Assembly (NCBI GenBank): GCA_001950395.1
Contig: BDLO01000001.1
Coordinates: 1,587,979-1,651,978, forward strand
Source of the DNA: Coriobacteriaceae bacterium EMTCatB1
GTDB lineage: Bacteria; Actinomycetota; Coriobacteriia; Anaerosomatales; Anaerosomataceae
DNA: 64,000 bases
Direction: 5' to 3'
This document shows, piece by piece, positions 18,630-51,561 of the stretch. The notes below the pieces were generated by a model. That model did no database searches, had not been told where the DNA came from, and was given only the letters and a program-made list of their open reading frames with translations. The translations under genes and the position numbers were made by a program. Within the stretch, counting starts at the first letter, position 1. Each line of letters starts with the position of its first letter.

Positions 18630-19346
18630 CTACTCGTCGTCTTTGGGGTTCCAGACCTCCCAGACGCGGCCGACGAGATCAGGGCCGGGTTTCAGCACCT
18701 TCTTGCCGGGCTCCCAGCCGGAGGGAGTGACTTCCTTGCCCCCTGTCTCCCGTACGTGCTGGAAGGCGCGGATCTGTCGAAGCGTCTCTTCGACCTTGCG
18801 GCCGACTGGCGGCGTGAGCACCTCCATCGCCTGGATGACGCCGTCCGGGTCGATGATGAACCTGCCGCGCACGTTCACGCCGGCGTCAGGGTCGTAGACG
18901 CCGTACGCAGAGCCGATGTGGCCTGCTGCGTCCGCCACCATCGGGAACGGTATGCCGCCCTGGACCATCTTGCTGAGCTCATGCTCGTCCCACATCTTGT
19001 GCACGAACTGGGAGTCCACGCTCACGGCCACGACCTCCGTGCCAAGCGACTTGAACTCCTCGTACCGTGCGGCGACCGCCGAGACCTCGGTCGGTCAAAC
19101 GAACGTGAAGTCTCCAGGGTAGAAGCACAGAACGACCCACGACCCGAGGAAGTCGGAGAGCTTCACCTGCTTGAACCCGCCCTGGTGATACGCGGGTGCG
19201 ACGAAATCCGGGGCCTTGCGCCCCACCATGATCGTGCTCACAGCGGCCTCCTTGTGCGTCGTTTCCACGTCCTCCTTCTCTTTCGGCCGTTCGCCAACGA
19301 CCGAGCCGGTCGGTCGTCCACAACCGATTGATTCCTGTTCTGCCAT
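18630..19346 (-). CDS. Selenocysteine-containing peroxiredoxin (UGA = Sec84)
   Basis: One reading frame from ATG 19346 to 18630 is interrupted only by TGA at 19097-19095. It encodes 238 residues of an AhpC/Prx1-like peroxiredoxin. The TGA falls exactly at the peroxidatic cysteine: [16 protein letters not shown]. With Sec read through, the thioredoxin fold is complete (KAPDFVAPA near 42, [13 protein letters not shown] near 165). No cysteine follows residue 84, and the usual resolving Cys of the VCP motif is replaced (KEVTPSGW), so this is a 1-Sec enzyme recycled by an outside thiol. The ATG has AAGGAGG. A hairpin follows the UGA. It lies 25 bp behind the DUF72 gene. Confidence 0.93.
19070..19093 (-). 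promoter_or_regulatory. Candidate SECIS element of peroxiredoxin
   Basis: Just after the UGA the mRNA can form CGGC-[GGUC]-GCCG (19081-19070), putting a GU-containing loop 17 nt past the UGA, the spacing of known bacterial SECIS hairpins. A competing stem CGACCG/CGGTCG (19093-19088 with 19078-19073) is also possible. Folding was judged by eye. Confidence 0.55.
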
Positions 19347-45966: not shown

Positions 45967-47784
45967 GTGAGCGACGAAGGCGTCATCAGCACCGGGCGAC
46001 CAGCTGCGAGGGAGCGAGAGCCGCTCATCGTTCACGACAAGCCGTCCTGCACTGAGTGCTGGGGTTGCGTGAGGGTGTGCCCGGTGAGGGCCATCCGAGT
46101 CGTCGAGGGGCGTTCGGAAATCATCCAAGAGAAGTGTGTCGCATGCGGGCTGTGTGTCGGGGAGTGCGGCGCCCGGGCGCACAAGGTCCGGGACGACACC
46201 CCAGCCGTTCGAGAGCTCTTGCGCTCCAGACGGCCCGTGGTGGCGCTGCTGGCATCGGAGTTCACGGCTGCGCTGCATCCGTTGACGCCGCTCGCCGTCG
46301 AGCGAGCGCTCGCAGGTCTCGGCTTCTCGTCTGTGGAGACGACTGCGCTCGGCGAGGAGATCGTCGCCATCGAGTACGAGCGAATCGCCGCGCGGGAAGG
46401 CACGCCGTTCACCATACGGTCGACGTGCCCGGTGGTGGTCGACTTCGTCCGGAAGTACCACCCTGCGTTCGTCCCGGCTCTTGCTCCCGTGGTGCCACCT
46501 TACGTGGCACAGGCCCGCCTCATCAGGGCGATGTACAGCGACGACGTGGCGATCGTGTACGTGAGCCCGTGCTTCGCTCGCAAGGACGAGGTCTTCGACC
46601 CCCATCTCGAAGGACCTGTGGACGCGGCGATCGACTTCCTGGAGTTGAAGCAGATGATCGTCTCCCAGGAGCGCGGGGGCGGGCACCGGGCCATGCATGC
46701 GAACGTGACTGCGCGCCCCCGGATCCTGAAGCAACTCTCGCTCACTGACGGGTTCCCGAGAGAAGCGCTCGCCAAAGGATCCCCGACCGATGGCCAGGTC
46801 CACGTAGTGCGTGGGATCCCCGATCTCGATCGGCTGCTCAAGGCGATCGCGGCAGGAGAGACCGCTCCGGCAGTCATCGATGCGCTCAACTGCGAGGGCT
46901 GCATCGATGGCCCCGCCGTCAATCCCGGGATGTCGCTCTTCGCGAAGCGCAACGTGGACCGTGCCGCGCGCACGGCGCCTGGGGTCGCGGCCGTGAGCAC
47001 TCGTACGCTCATGGAGGTGCTGCCGAAGGTCGAAGTCGTGCGGTCGTTCCGCCCCGATCCCGTGCACCTGCCGCGGCCGAGCGACGCTCTCATCGACGCG
47101 CTGCTCGCCGACGGAGGGTTCGCGTCGCGCGCGGAGGTGCTCGATTGCGGCGCGTGCGGGTATCCGACGTGCGTTGAGCACGCGGAGGCGATCTTCAGGG
47201 GCGACTCGTCTTGGGAGATGTGCTTCCCTCTCCAGCGGCGGCGCCTGCAGCAAGCCGAGACCGCGCTCGAAGCTCTGGTGACCATCGACGAGCTCACGGG
47301 GGTGTGGAACGACCGCGCATTCGATGAACGGCTCGGGCTCGAGATGGCGAGACATGCGCGATACGGCACGCCGCTGTCGCTCGTGCTGCTGGACATTGAC
47401 GGCTTCGGGGCCGTGAACGACCTCCTCGGCGAATCCGGCGCGGACGAAGTCCTGAAGCGGATCGCGGAGACCCTCGCAGGGAGCGTTCGCTCCACCGACA
47501 TGGTCGCTCGCCTACGCGGAGACCAGTTCGCGGTCCTGCTTCCTGGAGTCGGCAAGACGGCGGCGTTCGCGGTCGCCGAGAAGCTGCGTGCGCTCGTCCG
47601 AGAGCAGCGCATGCCAGCGGTGAGCGGGTATACAGGTGATGTGCGCGTCACGATGTCGGCTGGGGTCGCATCAGCTGACAAGGAGATGCTCGGCGGCGAC
47701 GACCTGCTCGCAGCCGCAGAGAACGCGCTTCTCGAGGCGGTCCAGCAAGGATCGGATCGGGTCGGTATAGCGGCATCAGGATAG
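45967..47784 (+). CDS. Ferredoxin/[FeFe]-hydrogenase-like/Fe-S/GGDEF fusion (redox-sensing signal protein)
   Basis: A 605-residue fusion. Residues 28-70: 2[4Fe-4S] ferredoxin (CTECWGCVRVCP, CVACGLCVGECG). About 80-370: [FeFe]-hydrogenase large-subunit-like domain with reduced H-cluster motifs: RSTCPVVVDF (one Cys, not TSCCP), SPCFARKDE and NCEGCIDGP, so the diiron active site is probably not catalytic. About 395-425: Fe-S (Fes4-like) motif CGACGYPTC with a later C. About 435-605: GGDEF domain (TIDELTGVWNDRAF, LLDIDGFGAVND) with signature RGDQF, likely inactive or altered. It probably senses redox state or H2-linked electron flow. GTG 45967 follows AAGGGGG; amrS starts 9 bp later. Confidence 0.88.
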   Translation: MSDEGVISTGRPAAREREPLIVHDKPSCTECWGCVRVCPVRAIRVVEGRSEIIQEKCVACGLCVGECGARAHKVRDDTPAVRELLRSRRPVVALLASEFTAALHPLTPLAVERALAGLGFSSVETTALGEEIVAIEYERIAAREGTPFTIRSTCPVVVDFVRKYHPAFVPALAPVVPPYVAQARLIRAMYSDDVAIVYVSPCFARKDEVFDPHLEGPVDAAIDFLELKQMIVSQERGGGHRAMHANVTARPRILKQLSLTDGFPREALAKGSPTDGQVHVVRGIPDLDRLLKAIAAGETAPAVIDALNCEGCIDGPAVNPGMSLFAKRNVDRAARTAPGVAAVSTRTLMEVLPKVEVVRSFRPDPVHLPRPSDALIDALLADGGFASRAEVLDCGACGYPTCVEHAEAIFRGDSSWEMCFPLQRRRLQQAETALEALVTIDELTGVWNDRAFDERLGLEMARHARYGTPLSLVLLDIDGFGAVNDLLGESGADEVLKRIAETLAGSVRSTDMVARLRGDQFAVLLPGVGKTAAFAVAEKLRALVREQRMPAVSGYTGDVRVTMSAGVASADKEMLGGDDLLAAAENALLEAVQQGSDRVGIAASG

Positions 47785-47793
47785 GAGGGCACG

Positions 47794-48804
47794 GTGCGAG
47801 AGGCCGACCTCTGGGAGACCTTAGAGGGCGGCGTCGTGCACTGTCTGCTGTGCCCTCACAGCTGCCGCATCGCAGACGGAGCGGCGGGTATCTGCGGCGC
47901 GAGACGCAACGTGGGCGGACGGCTCTTCGCGGCGACCTACGGCGAGGTCTCCTCGATTGCAGCCGATCCTATCGAGAAGAAGCCGGTCTTCCACTACCGT
48001 CCGGGAACGCGGGCGCTCTCGCTCGGCAGCGTCGGGTGCAGCATGCGCTGTCTGCACTGCCAGAACTGGAGCATCAGCCGGGCGCGGCTTGAGGACGGCG
48101 GCGTCAGGAGGATTGCACCGGAAGAAGTGGTCGCCATCGCGCGCCTCGAGTCGTGCGAGGGAGTCGCGTTCACGTACAACGAGCCGGTGATCTGGGCGGA
48201 GTTCGTGAAGGACACCGCAGCGCGCGCGAGAGACGCCGGGCTGTACACCGTGATGGTCACCAACGGCTACGTCACCGAGGCGGGGCTCGACTACCTCGGC
48301 TCGGTGATCGACGTGTGGCGTGTCGATGTCAAGGCGTTCGACGACGAGACCTATCGACGCCTGTGCAAGGTCCGCTCGATGCTGCCTATCTTGGAGGCCG
48401 CCGTCCGGGCCAAGGAGCGGTGGGGCATGCACGTGGAAGTCGTCACCAACGTCATCCCGTCCGTGAACGACTCCGCAGAGACTGCGCGGGGAATCGCTCG
48501 ATGGATTCGCGATGCCCTCGGGGCGAAGACGCCGTGGCACGTCACACGCTTCTTCCCGTACCTCGAGCTCTCGCACCTGCCGCCGACGCCTGTCGAGACG
48601 CTCCGGCGCTTCCGCGACATCGGCAGGGAAGAAGGGCTCGCGTTCGTGTACCTCGGCAACGTCGCAGAGCCAGGAGGCGAGGACACAGTGTGCCCGCGGT
48701 GCGGCGCCCTCGCGATCGGTCGCGACGGCTATCGCATCGTCAGCCGCGCGACGCGAGGCGGTGCGTGTGCCGCATGCGGAGAGCCGCTCGGGCTGGTTGA
48801 ATGA
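47794..48804 (+). CDS. amrS: AmmeMemoRadiSam system radical SAM enzyme
   Basis: A 336-residue radical SAM protein of the AmrS family. An N-terminal CLLCPHSCRIADGAAGICGAR segment gives extra cysteines. The radical SAM cluster motif is GCSMRCLHCQNW near residue 85 (CxxxCxxC), followed by GVAFTYNEPVIWAEFV near 122 and a glycine-rich SAM region. A C-terminal CPRC...CAAC zinc-type pair closes the chain. The family works with AmmeMemo proteins of unknown function, which are not in the window. GTG 47794 has AGGAGGG. It lies between the Fe-S/GGDEF fusion and the Sec-DsbA gene. Confidence 0.93.
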   Translation: MREADLWETLEGGVVHCLLCPHSCRIADGAAGICGARRNVGGRLFAATYGEVSSIAADPIEKKPVFHYRPGTRALSLGSVGCSMRCLHCQNWSISRARLEDGGVRRIAPEEVVAIARLESCEGVAFTYNEPVIWAEFVKDTAARARDAGLYTVMVTNGYVTEAGLDYLGSVIDVWRVDVKAFDDETYRRLCKVRSMLPILEAAVRAKERWGMHVEVVTNVIPSVNDSAETARGIARWIRDALGAKTPWHVTRFFPYLELSHLPPTPVETLRRFRDIGREEGLAFVYLGNVAEPGGEDTVCPRCGALAIGRDGYRIVSRATRGGACAACGEPLGLVE

Positions 48805-48815
48805 AGGAGAGAGCC

Positions 48816-49466
48816 GTGGCTGACGATCGGTCGCAAGCAGCAGTCTCGCGCGTGCTGGTGTTCTACGACTACGCTTGACCTTTCTGTTTCGTGGACCAGT
48901 TCCGGTTCCTTAAGCTCCGCGAAGAGATGGGCGTGTACCTCATGGGTGTGCCGTTCGAGCTTCGGCCGGACATGCCAGACGAAGGACTGTCGGCGTCACG
49001 CGACGGGCTCTCGCATTCCCCGCGTGTCGAAGAGCGGTTGATCCAGCTCGCTGCCAAGGAAGGCGAGCGCATGGTGCTGCCCGACCTCGTGCCGAAGACG
49101 CACAACGCCATGGTGCTTGCGGAAATCGGACGCGACAGAGGGGACGATGTGTTCTGGCCGCTTCACCTCGACATCTTCAGGGAGTACTTCGTCGCCGGCA
49201 GGGACATCGGCGATCGGAGCGTGCTCGTCCCCGTCGGTCTGAAGCACGGGATCCCGGAGTCCGAGATGACTGAAGCGTGGGACTCGGGGCGGTACGACGA
49301 GCGGCTCCACGAGTTCAGGCACCTCGCTCTTCACCTTGGGATTCAGGAGACACCTGCCGCGATCATCTGCGACGAGCTGATCGTCGGCTCGCGGCCCTAC
49401 GAAGTCCTGCGCGCTGCCGTCCAACGGTGCCTGGTGCGGCCGGACAACGTCCAGAACGCTGAGTAG
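48816..49466 (+). CDS. Selenocysteine-containing DsbA/FrnE-family thioredoxin-fold protein (UGA = Sec21)
   Basis: From GTG 48816 (AAGGAG 6 nt upstream) one frame runs to 49466, broken only by TGA at 48876-48878. Read as Sec it encodes 216 residues of a DsbA-family oxidoreductase with active site YA-U-PFC-FVDQF, where relatives have CPFC. FELRPDMPDEGLSAS near residue 50 is typical of FrnE/2-hydroxychromene-isomerase-like DsbA proteins, and the C-terminal half has HLDIFREYFVAGRDIGD. There is no signal peptide, so it is cytosolic. A SECIS-like hairpin follows the UGA. It lies 11 bp after amrS. It is the second gene in this window with UGA exactly at the catalytic Cys. Confidence 0.92.
48893..48909 (+). 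promoter_or_regulatory. Candidate SECIS element of Sec-DsbA gene
   Basis: GGACC (48893-48897), loop AGTTCC and GGTTCC (48904-48909) form a 5-bp stem with one bulged U and a loop containing GU, 14 nt after the UGA. A bulged U plus a GU loop is the minimal SECIS pattern known from E. coli fdhF, although there the bulge is on the 5' side. Folding was judged by eye. Confidence 0.6.
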
Positions 49467-49516: not shown

Positions 49517-50791
49517 ATGACGTGCTGCGAGATGGAAGGTGTTCCGTTGGAGCCCTGCGTCATCATCCCTACGTTCTGGACGCGCAAGCGAGGCCGACCG
49601 ACCTCAGAGGGCCCGTTCCGCTACGACCACCCGACGCCGATCGACGAGGACGGCACGCTCCCCGACTGTCTGCGATCGCTGGAGACTGTCGAGGGGCTCG
49701 GGCGCGTCGTGCTTATCGTGGCTGCGACGCACGAGTCAGTGGAGCACGCCGCCGAGGACCGCGTGCGCGACATCCTCGCTGACTTTCCAGAGCTGGACGC
49801 ACTTGTGGTCGGCCCCGCGGAGATGGGGTCTTTGCACCGGCGGATGGAGCAGCTGGAGTTCGCCGACATTCTGGACGCAGTCGCCCTCGGCAGTTATGGA
49901 GCGGTGCGCAACGTCGGCCTGCTGGTCGCCGCGACGCTGGGTTCTGACCTCGTCGTGTTCGTCGACGACGATCAGGTGGTGACCGACCCTGCGTTCCTCC
50001 TTCGCGCGCAAGAGGGGATCGGCGAGGAAACCGGCAAGGGCAAGCGCGTGCTTGCGAAGAGCGGCTACTACACCGACGAGCAGGGGCGCTACCAGTTTGC
50101 GAGCGATGCTCCCTGGTACGACATGTTCTGGCGACAGGACGACGCGTTCACTTTGGCGCTCGCGGCAGTCGCACGTCCTCCTCGGATCACGCCCAGCACT
50201 GTGGCCATGGGCGGCTGCCTGGCGATCCACAAAGACCTGTACAGCACGGTGCCCTTCGACCCGTGGGTCGGGCGCGGCGAGGACATCGACTACGTGATCA
50301 ACGTCCGGATGCACGGCGGGGACATCTTCTTGGACGGCGAATGGTCGGTTATCCATCAGCCACCGAAGCTTCCCAGCGAGGCTGCTGCGTTCAGGCAAGA
50401 CGTCTTCCGGTTCGTGTACGAGCACCGGAAGCTGGAGTTCTCGAAGTCGCAGGTGGACCTGCGGCAGGTCACGCCGGACTCGCTCATGCCGTACCCGGGC
50501 CCGTTCGTGGAGGGCTCGGTCGTATGGCGGGCCCGTGTCACCGCGCTTCTCCGTGCCCTTTCCGGGAAGGAGCCGGGAGAGTACCTACGCATCGCGCGTC
50601 GCGGTGTGAAGCAGGCCAACGAGTACTCGCGCGAGAACTGCGAGCGGTACTTCGCATTGCAGCGCAGGTGGCCGATGCTCGTGGATCGCCTGTGGGAAGA
50701 CATCGCGCTCAAGACGCTGTTCACTGGTGAGCGCCGCATCGATAGGAGCGCGATCACCGGTCGATTCCCGGTGGTGCCGCCGGAGCGATGA
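49517..50791 (+). CDS. Glycosyltransferase family 2-like protein
   Basis: A protein of up to 424 residues with a GT-A fold. CVIIPTFWTRKRG opens the nucleotide-binding domain, the DxD-type metal motif is LVVFVDDDQVVTD near residue 152, and MGGCLAIHKDLY near 230 and GRGEDIDYVI near 252 are acceptor-side blocks like those of mannosyl/galactosyltransferases. It probably moves a sugar onto a lipid or polymer at the membrane. Start is uncertain: ATG 49517 (given), ATG 49532, or TTG 49547, the last having the best ribosome site (GGAAGG). The stop overlaps the TSUP gene by 4 bp. Confidence 0.82.
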   Translation: MTCCEMEGVPLEPCVIIPTFWTRKRGRPTSEGPFRYDHPTPIDEDGTLPDCLRSLETVEGLGRVVLIVAATHESVEHAAEDRVRDILADFPELDALVVGPAEMGSLHRRMEQLEFADILDAVALGSYGAVRNVGLLVAATLGSDLVVFVDDDQVVTDPAFLLRAQEGIGEETGKGKRVLAKSGYYTDEQGRYQFASDAPWYDMFWRQDDAFTLALAAVARPPRITPSTVAMGGCLAIHKDLYSTVPFDPWVGRGEDIDYVINVRMHGGDIFLDGEWSVIHQPPKLPSEAAAFRQDVFRFVYEHRKLEFSKSQVDLRQVTPDSLMPYPGPFVEGSVVWRARVTALLRALSGKEPGEYLRIARRGVKQANEYSRENCERYFALQRRWPMLVDRLWEDIALKTLFTGERRIDRSAITGRFPVVPPER

Positions 50792-51561
50792 GCCTGGGGT
50801 CGGCGGCGCAGTCGTTCTTGATCGGGGCGGTCTCCGGGGTCCTGTCGGGCGCATTCGGCATCGGGGGCGGTATCGTGACGACCCCGGCCATCCGCCTCAT
50901 CCTGAAGGCGCCTGCGCTCGTGGCCGTGGGCACGCCGCTGCCGGTCATCATCCCGGGAGCGCTCACGGGAGCGTGGACGTACCTTCGTCGAGACCTCGTC
51001 GACGTCCGCGCCGCCACGACAGTGGGCGTCGTGGGGTCGATCGCCTCCATCGTGGGTGCGTGGCTGAGCAAGCTAGCGGGGGGCTCGGCCGTCATGCTCG
51101 CGACGGCGGCGCTCATCGTGTACGTGGCTGCCGACACCGCCGTCTGGGCAGCCAAGAAGAGTCGTGGGCACCACGGGCAGCGGCCTGCCGCGCCGGCTGT
51201 CCCTCGTGTGGCGACGATCGGGCTCGCGGCGGGGCTGTATTCGGGCTTCCTCGGCCTTGGGGGCGGCTTCGTCATCGTGCCCTTGCTTACGCGCTGGCTC
51301 GGGTTCGACATGAAGAGGGCCGTGGGCACCAGTCTGCTCTCGGTCGCGATCCTCGCGATACCAGGAAGCGTCGCCCACTACCTTCTCGGTCACATCGACC
51401 CGAAGATTGCCCTCGGGTTGGCCGTGGGCGTCGTCCCGGGGGCAGCCGTCGGGTCGCGCCTCACGGTGCTCGCACGCGAGACGGCCGTGCGCTACGCGTT
51501 CGCGGTGATGCTGGTATGCGTTGCCGTCTGGCTCGTCCTCGGGGAGCTGGGGGCACTGTGA
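50788..51561 (+). CDS. TSUP (TauE/SafE) family anion transporter
   Basis: A 257-residue membrane protein with about eight hydrophobic segments and two family repeats: SGAFGIGGGIVTTPAI near residue 20 and SGFLGLGGGFVIVPLL near 153. TSUP proteins move sulfite, sulfoacetate, formate-like or other organic anions across the membrane. ATG 50788 overlaps the glycosyltransferase stop and its own stop overlaps the acetyltransferase start. Confidence 0.92.
   Translation: MSLGSAAQSFLIGAVSGVLSGAFGIGGGIVTTPAIRLILKAPALVAVGTPLPVIIPGALTGAWTYLRRDLVDVRAATTVGVVGSIASIVGAWLSKLAGGSAVMLATAALIVYVAADTAVWAAKKSRGHHGQRPAAPAVPRVATIGLAAGLYSGFLGLGGGFVIVPLLTRWLGFDMKRAVGTSLLSVAILAIPGSVAHYLLGHIDPKIALGLAVGVVPGAAVGSRLTVLARETAVRYAFAVMLVCVAVWLVLGELGAL

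Follow-up and report, generated by a model that had tools for sequence, protein, structure and literature searches.

A predicted selenocysteine-containing FrnE/DsbA-type oxidoreductase gene in Coriobacteriia and the sequence context of its in-frame UGA

The gene at positions 48816-49466 of the 64,000-nucleotide stretch of Coriobacteriaceae bacterium EMTCatB1 DNA analysed here (the window) very probably encodes a cytosolic FrnE/DsbA-type thiol-disulfide oxidoreductase with selenocysteine (Sec) as its active-site nucleophile, in the motif U21-P-F-C24; we put the probability of this reading at about 0.95. Comparison with orthologous sequences indicates that the locus is a real selenoprotein gene in which an in-frame UGA puts Sec in the active site. 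The orthologues have exchanged Sec and Cys repeatedly, and the Sec forms share both a hairpin downstream of the UGA and a U directly before it.

The gene and its product

48816-49466, forward strand: Sec-containing FrnE/DsbA-type oxidoreductase gene (predicted), 216 residues, GTG start, TAG stop, active site U21-P-F-C24
48804-48811, forward strand: ribosome-binding region AAGGAGAG, upstream of the GTG start, from sequence
48876-48878, forward strand: UGA codon 21, predicted Sec codon, with Cys at the aligned position of 13 orthologues

The original prediction described a GTG start with a good ribosome site, a frame broken solely by TGA at codon 21, and an active site that would be lost from any annotation begun after the UGA; each of these points was borne out. 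The sequence AAGGAGAG is a Shine-Dalgarno match with 6 nt spacing between its GGAG and GTG 48816, and the upstream gene stops 11 nt before that start. The sole in-frame stop ahead of TAG 49464-49466 is TGA 48876-48878, its coordinates being exact, and the context of codon 21 in the read-through frame is YDYA-U-PFC. The standard ORF call begins 3' of the UGA, at GTG 48891, yielding a 191-aa product that lacks the active site.

Pfam, a profile match to a solved FrnE and the predicted fold all agree with the DsbA/FrnE-type assignment made in that prediction. The Pfam DSBA family (PF01323) matches residues 13-203 (E 1e-19; 71.5 bits against a gathering cut-off of 25.6), and the profile match to FrnE 5cnw has an E of 1.2e-17. 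The closest fold to the AlphaFold model (pLDDT 91.7) is that of Deinococcus radiodurans FrnE (Z 25.1, rmsd 2.2, 204 residues), followed by SCO1869, HCCA isomerase (Z 22.3) and kappa GST (Z about 20); solved-structure matches to designed repeat proteins (6xr1 and others) were discarded as chance repeat matches. The best fold and profile matches, together with a CXXC-type site near the N-terminus, favour placing the protein in the FrnE subfamily (COG2761). No signal peptide is visible in the sequence, and the enzyme is therefore presumed to be cytosolic.

Orthologues and exchange of Sec and Cys

The gene was sought in 60 relatives as well as in the genome of the window, with a match in 36, and 34 syntenic orthologues, all of the same order, were taken for the reading of codon 21. 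This codon is TGA in 21 of them and TGC or TGT in the other 13. The alignment to FrnE/DsbA homologues thus returned the Cys that had been expected at residue 21, and homologues without any residue at this position, named in the original prediction as evidence against it, were not encountered among the 34. Invariant across the orthologue alignment are C24, the Thr-Pro loop (T179-P180), C185 and C205. The gene is present in 39 of 396 Coriobacteriia genomes, all within the window's own order. Within the genus, pN/pS is 0.22 upstream of the UGA (codons 10-20) and 0.19-0.23 downstream, and this likeness argues for the same coding constraint on both parts.

About six changes between Sec and Cys are needed on the tree, of which at least two are forced by well supported branches. 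One Cys orthologue (L041, genome G050) retains the GCT that precedes the codon as well as a hairpin core of the Sec type; judged from its sequence, it is likely a recent Sec-to-Cys conversion carrying a fossil SECIS. The idea that the TGA or Cys form tracks the presence or absence of Sec machinery was dropped, as selB is found in most Cys-form genomes too.

The surroundings of the gene in the window are as follows.

45967-47784, forward strand: iron-only hydrogenase large-subunit C-terminal domain fused to GGDEF, conserved neighbour
47794-48804, forward strand: AmmeMemoRadiSam system radical SAM enzyme (TIGR04337), upstream neighbour ending 11 nt before the GTG
49517-50791, forward strand: weakly family-2 glycosyltransferase-like protein, conserved downstream neighbour
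50788-51561, forward strand: TauE/SafE permease, conserved downstream neighbour

The order hydrogenase/GGDEF, radical SAM, DsbA, glycosyltransferase-like, TauE, sensor kinase and LytTR regulator shows little change in the 16 loci examined, one of which (G058) is without the radical SAM gene. Because gene order is kept around both the Sec and the Cys forms, the two are considered orthologues. The fusion of a ferredoxin-type [FeFe]-hydrogenase C-terminal domain to GGDEF, which lies beside the DsbA gene in the 16 loci, looks like a sensor. The product of 49517-50791 shows 65-90% identity, above that of DsbA itself, and its glycosyltransferase-2 match is weak.

The SECIS hairpin

48893-48909, forward strand: apical SECIS stem-loop GGACC-AGUUCC-GGUUCC, GU in the loop, one unpaired U in the 3' arm, on a comparative basis

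A hairpin with a bulged U and a GU loop had been predicted within the 31 nt that follow the UGA. Hairpin, GU loop and unpaired U are all present, and the description is refined in that the U lies in the 3' arm. The core spans 15-31 nt downstream; the hairpin ends 31 nt after the UGA, and the GGACC/GGUUCC stem encloses a six-base loop with GU. In the E. coli fdhF SECIS the bulged U is on the 5' side, whereas the unpaired U here is on the 3' side. No Rfam element matched the locus.

SECIS folding, proposed as a check, gave a divided result. The single-sequence fold of the window's hairpin alone is not significant relative to shuffles (z -0.35), and comparative evidence was therefore used, which did favour the element. 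The core GACC-[AG]GUUC[AC]-GGU stands at a fixed distance from the UGA in all 21 Sec genes as opposed to 1 of the 13 Cys genes. Pair 18-34 is C-G in 17 Sec genes and G-C in 4 (those of the window's genus) with zero mismatches, which amounts to one compensated pair. RNAalifold recovered the helix from the Sec set and none from the Cys set. Within the hairpin, codon usage is likewise restricted in the Sec set, with Arg30 only CGG or AGG and Asp27 only GAC, and looser in the Cys set. In the Cys genes, too, 82% of cells at the stem positions are paired; part of the pairing thus follows from shared coding constraint, and for this reason the case is not rested on pairing alone. In these alignments, the features that discriminate the Sec from the Cys genes are the loop and the two closing C-G pairs. 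The element has the form of a bacterial SECIS, a stem-loop just after the UGA with a G in the apical loop, albeit one whose single fold is not significant.

Sec machinery and other selenoproteins

The genome encodes tRNA-Sec (anticodon tca), selB, selA and selD, all at 1.713-1.721 Mb and within about 7 kb of one another (one contig, 1.84 Mb). It therefore holds the complete set of selA, selB, selC (tRNA-Sec) and selD by which bacterial selenoproteins are judged, and the absence of Sec machinery that would have told against the original prediction was not observed. The selD gene (L210, G000:C1:1713630-1714547) is itself a selenoprotein gene, with an in-frame TGA in KSG-U-AAKWGPGD and GGT before the UGA. 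The claim that the 64 kb contain two selenoprotein genes also holds, the other one being a peroxiredoxin with TGA at 19097 on the reverse strand.

18630-19346, reverse strand: AhpC/1-Cys peroxiredoxin, second selenoprotein gene of the window, UGA 19097-19095, FTFV-U-PTE

The peroxiredoxin TGA sits at the peroxidatic Cys, and the gene was found in 17 of the 61 genomes searched, with TGA in every one of the 17.

Three of the 21 TGA-bearing genomes (G012, G045 and G053) yielded no selA, selB or tRNA-Sec; G053 has a further TGA-containing gene. Most simply, the clustered locus was not assembled in these genomes. This is favoured because the sel genes are clustered and the sister genomes have them, and loss of Sec decoding was judged the weaker explanation.

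Relation to known selenoproteins

Catalogues have included DsbA-like UxxC selenoproteins (COG2761/PF01323) since 2005 (PMC1088965), and a 'DsbA-like protein form 1' is listed as a selenoprotein (PMC13188914). The family is therefore already known as a selenoprotein family, to which this gene adds a member. With the DsbA-like selenoproteins of the 2005 Sargasso Sea set (PMC1088965) and of PMC13188914 it shares the Pfam family, the UxxC motif, a SECIS directly after the UGA and the existence of Cys homologues. It differs in its source, as those of PMC1088965 came first from marine metagenomes and the genes here come from an order of Coriobacteriia and a conserved neighbourhood; the family-specific hairpin loop RGUUCM and the U before the UGA seem to set it apart further.

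Deinococcus radiodurans FrnE (DR_0659; 5cnw/5cp1), described as a cytoplasmic disulfide reductase or isomerase, shares the fold (Z 25) and the cytosolic location and has a CP(W/F)C-type site where UPFC sits (PMC8945050). In the present protein Sec replaces the first Cys, and identity to D. radiodurans FrnE is 20-22% (structural alignment). The C-terminal CX4C, which is found in many FrnE proteins and is not strictly defining, is absent from all 34 orthologues; it is also missing from some FrnE proteins (PMC8945050).

Several other Actinomycetota families also possess Sec-FrnE genes (L137-L139, L142, L144, L145, L147-L151, L155, L158), with TGA at the equivalent position in the context DY/DF-I-U-P[FYW]C. 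These are more distant, with profile scores of 98-156 bits versus at least 300 within the order, and they have A or C before the UGA, not U.

A U directly before the Sec-UGA

48873-48875, forward strand: GCT codon, U at -1 to the UGA, conserved in Sec forms only

In the Sec set, no codon of the alignment is as biased as codon 20, where GCT accounts for 16 of 16 Ala codons, against a background GCT share of about 10% of Ala codons. A U at -1 is found in 18 of the 21 Sec genes for DsbA as opposed to 1 of the 13 Cys forms at the matching codon. The same base precedes the UGA in 16 of 17 Sec-peroxiredoxin genes (GTT; 19098-19100 in the window copy) and in Sec-FdhA genes, both in the order (10/10, CTT) and in the rest of Coriobacteriia (20/20, ACT or GTT). 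It is found in one of two more distant Fdh genes, and selD of this genome reads GGT-TGA as well. The matching codon of Cys-FdhA is mostly ACC, ACG, GTC or CTG, and only 2 of 69 terminating TGA codons of neighbouring genes follow a U. Pooled over three unrelated families in Coriobacteriia, -1 U stands at 65/70 versus 2/69 (Fisher p 7e-31, indicative only, since the rows are related). The amino acids that precede the Sec-UGA with -1 U are Ala, Val, Leu and Thr, with Gly in SelD.

Independent contrasts for -1 U on the DsbA tree comprise two supported pairs and hence have no power. An informal comparison across families revealed no apparent shared downstream partner base for the -1 U, as the idea of an extended SECIS stem would have it. 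A 5' context rule for bacterial Sec decoding was not found in the literature searched.

In Coriobacteriia, Sec decoding seems to need the -1 U as a further cis signal, or at least strongly to prefer it. It is somewhat more likely than not that Sec decoding in this class uses a 5' element (NNU-UGA) besides the downstream SECIS, across unrelated genes and with various preceding residues. On the sequences compared the rule is lineage-specific, because A or C takes the place of U in the Sec-FrnE genes of other Actinomycetota. As a guess, the -1 U perhaps acts on the ribosome, either by way of the wobble pair in the P site or by affecting how release factor 2 competes for the codon.

Alternative explanations and proposed mechanism

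That UGA 48876 is a real stop, leaving a pseudogene or a 191-aa protein made solely from GTG 48891, is highly improbable. The standard ORF caller does list only 48891-49466, but 21 genomes have TGA at this codon, purifying selection acts both before and after it, and the 191-aa product would be without the first strand and the active site. Reinitiation downstream was rejected as well, for GTG 48891 has a counterpart in only 4 of the 21 Sec genes, those of the window's genus, with GTC in the other 17, and in several Sec genes the roughly 20 codons that come next include no possible start. A sequencing error as the source of the UGA is very unlikely. Highly improbable too is a genome-wide reassignment of UGA (to Trp, for example) or its reading as Cys: the frame would be open under any code in which UGA is sense, but TGA makes up 69 of the 131 stops examined in these loci, the aligned residue is always Cys and never Trp, tRNA-Sec (tca) and SelB are present, and the SECIS signature tracks the UGA.

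Membership of another DsbA-fold group, whether kappa-class GST/HCCA isomerase or the Rcas_1661/DsbG-like seleno-lipoproteins, in place of the FrnE subfamily is unlikely, though less remote than either of these readings of the codon. The fold scores of HCCA isomerase and kappa GST given above speak for it, as does a weak match to NF041057 (the seleno-lipoprotein family) in 32 of the 34 orthologues. Against this, FrnE ranks first both by profile (among natural proteins) and by fold, and the CXXC-type motif is retained, whereas kappa GST and HCCA isomerase use Ser. The NF041057 score of 27.1 bits is far below the curated cut-off of 190, and the N-terminus shows no sign of a lipoprotein signal.

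For the preferred reading, a Sec-containing FrnE-type enzyme, we infer Sec insertion, enzymatic direction and substrate as follows. SelB with Sec-tRNA would bind the hairpin just 3' of UGA 48876 and deliver Sec there in place of termination. Sec21 would then attack substrate disulfides, and Cys24, beside the conserved Thr-Pro loop (T179-P180), would resolve the selenyl-sulfide. On balance, the enzyme would most likely serve to reduce or isomerise disulfides in the cytosol of an anaerobe.

Implications

With this gene, a known selenoprotein family reaches into an order of Coriobacteriia. Gene finders that start downstream of the UGA lose its active site. The repeated swaps between Sec and Cys within one conserved neighbourhood provide a clean natural experiment on Sec-to-Cys conversion. 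If the -1 U rule is true, it would be a simple signal separating Sec-UGA from stop-UGA in a whole bacterial class, one that would improve annotation and point to competition between Sec decoding and termination.
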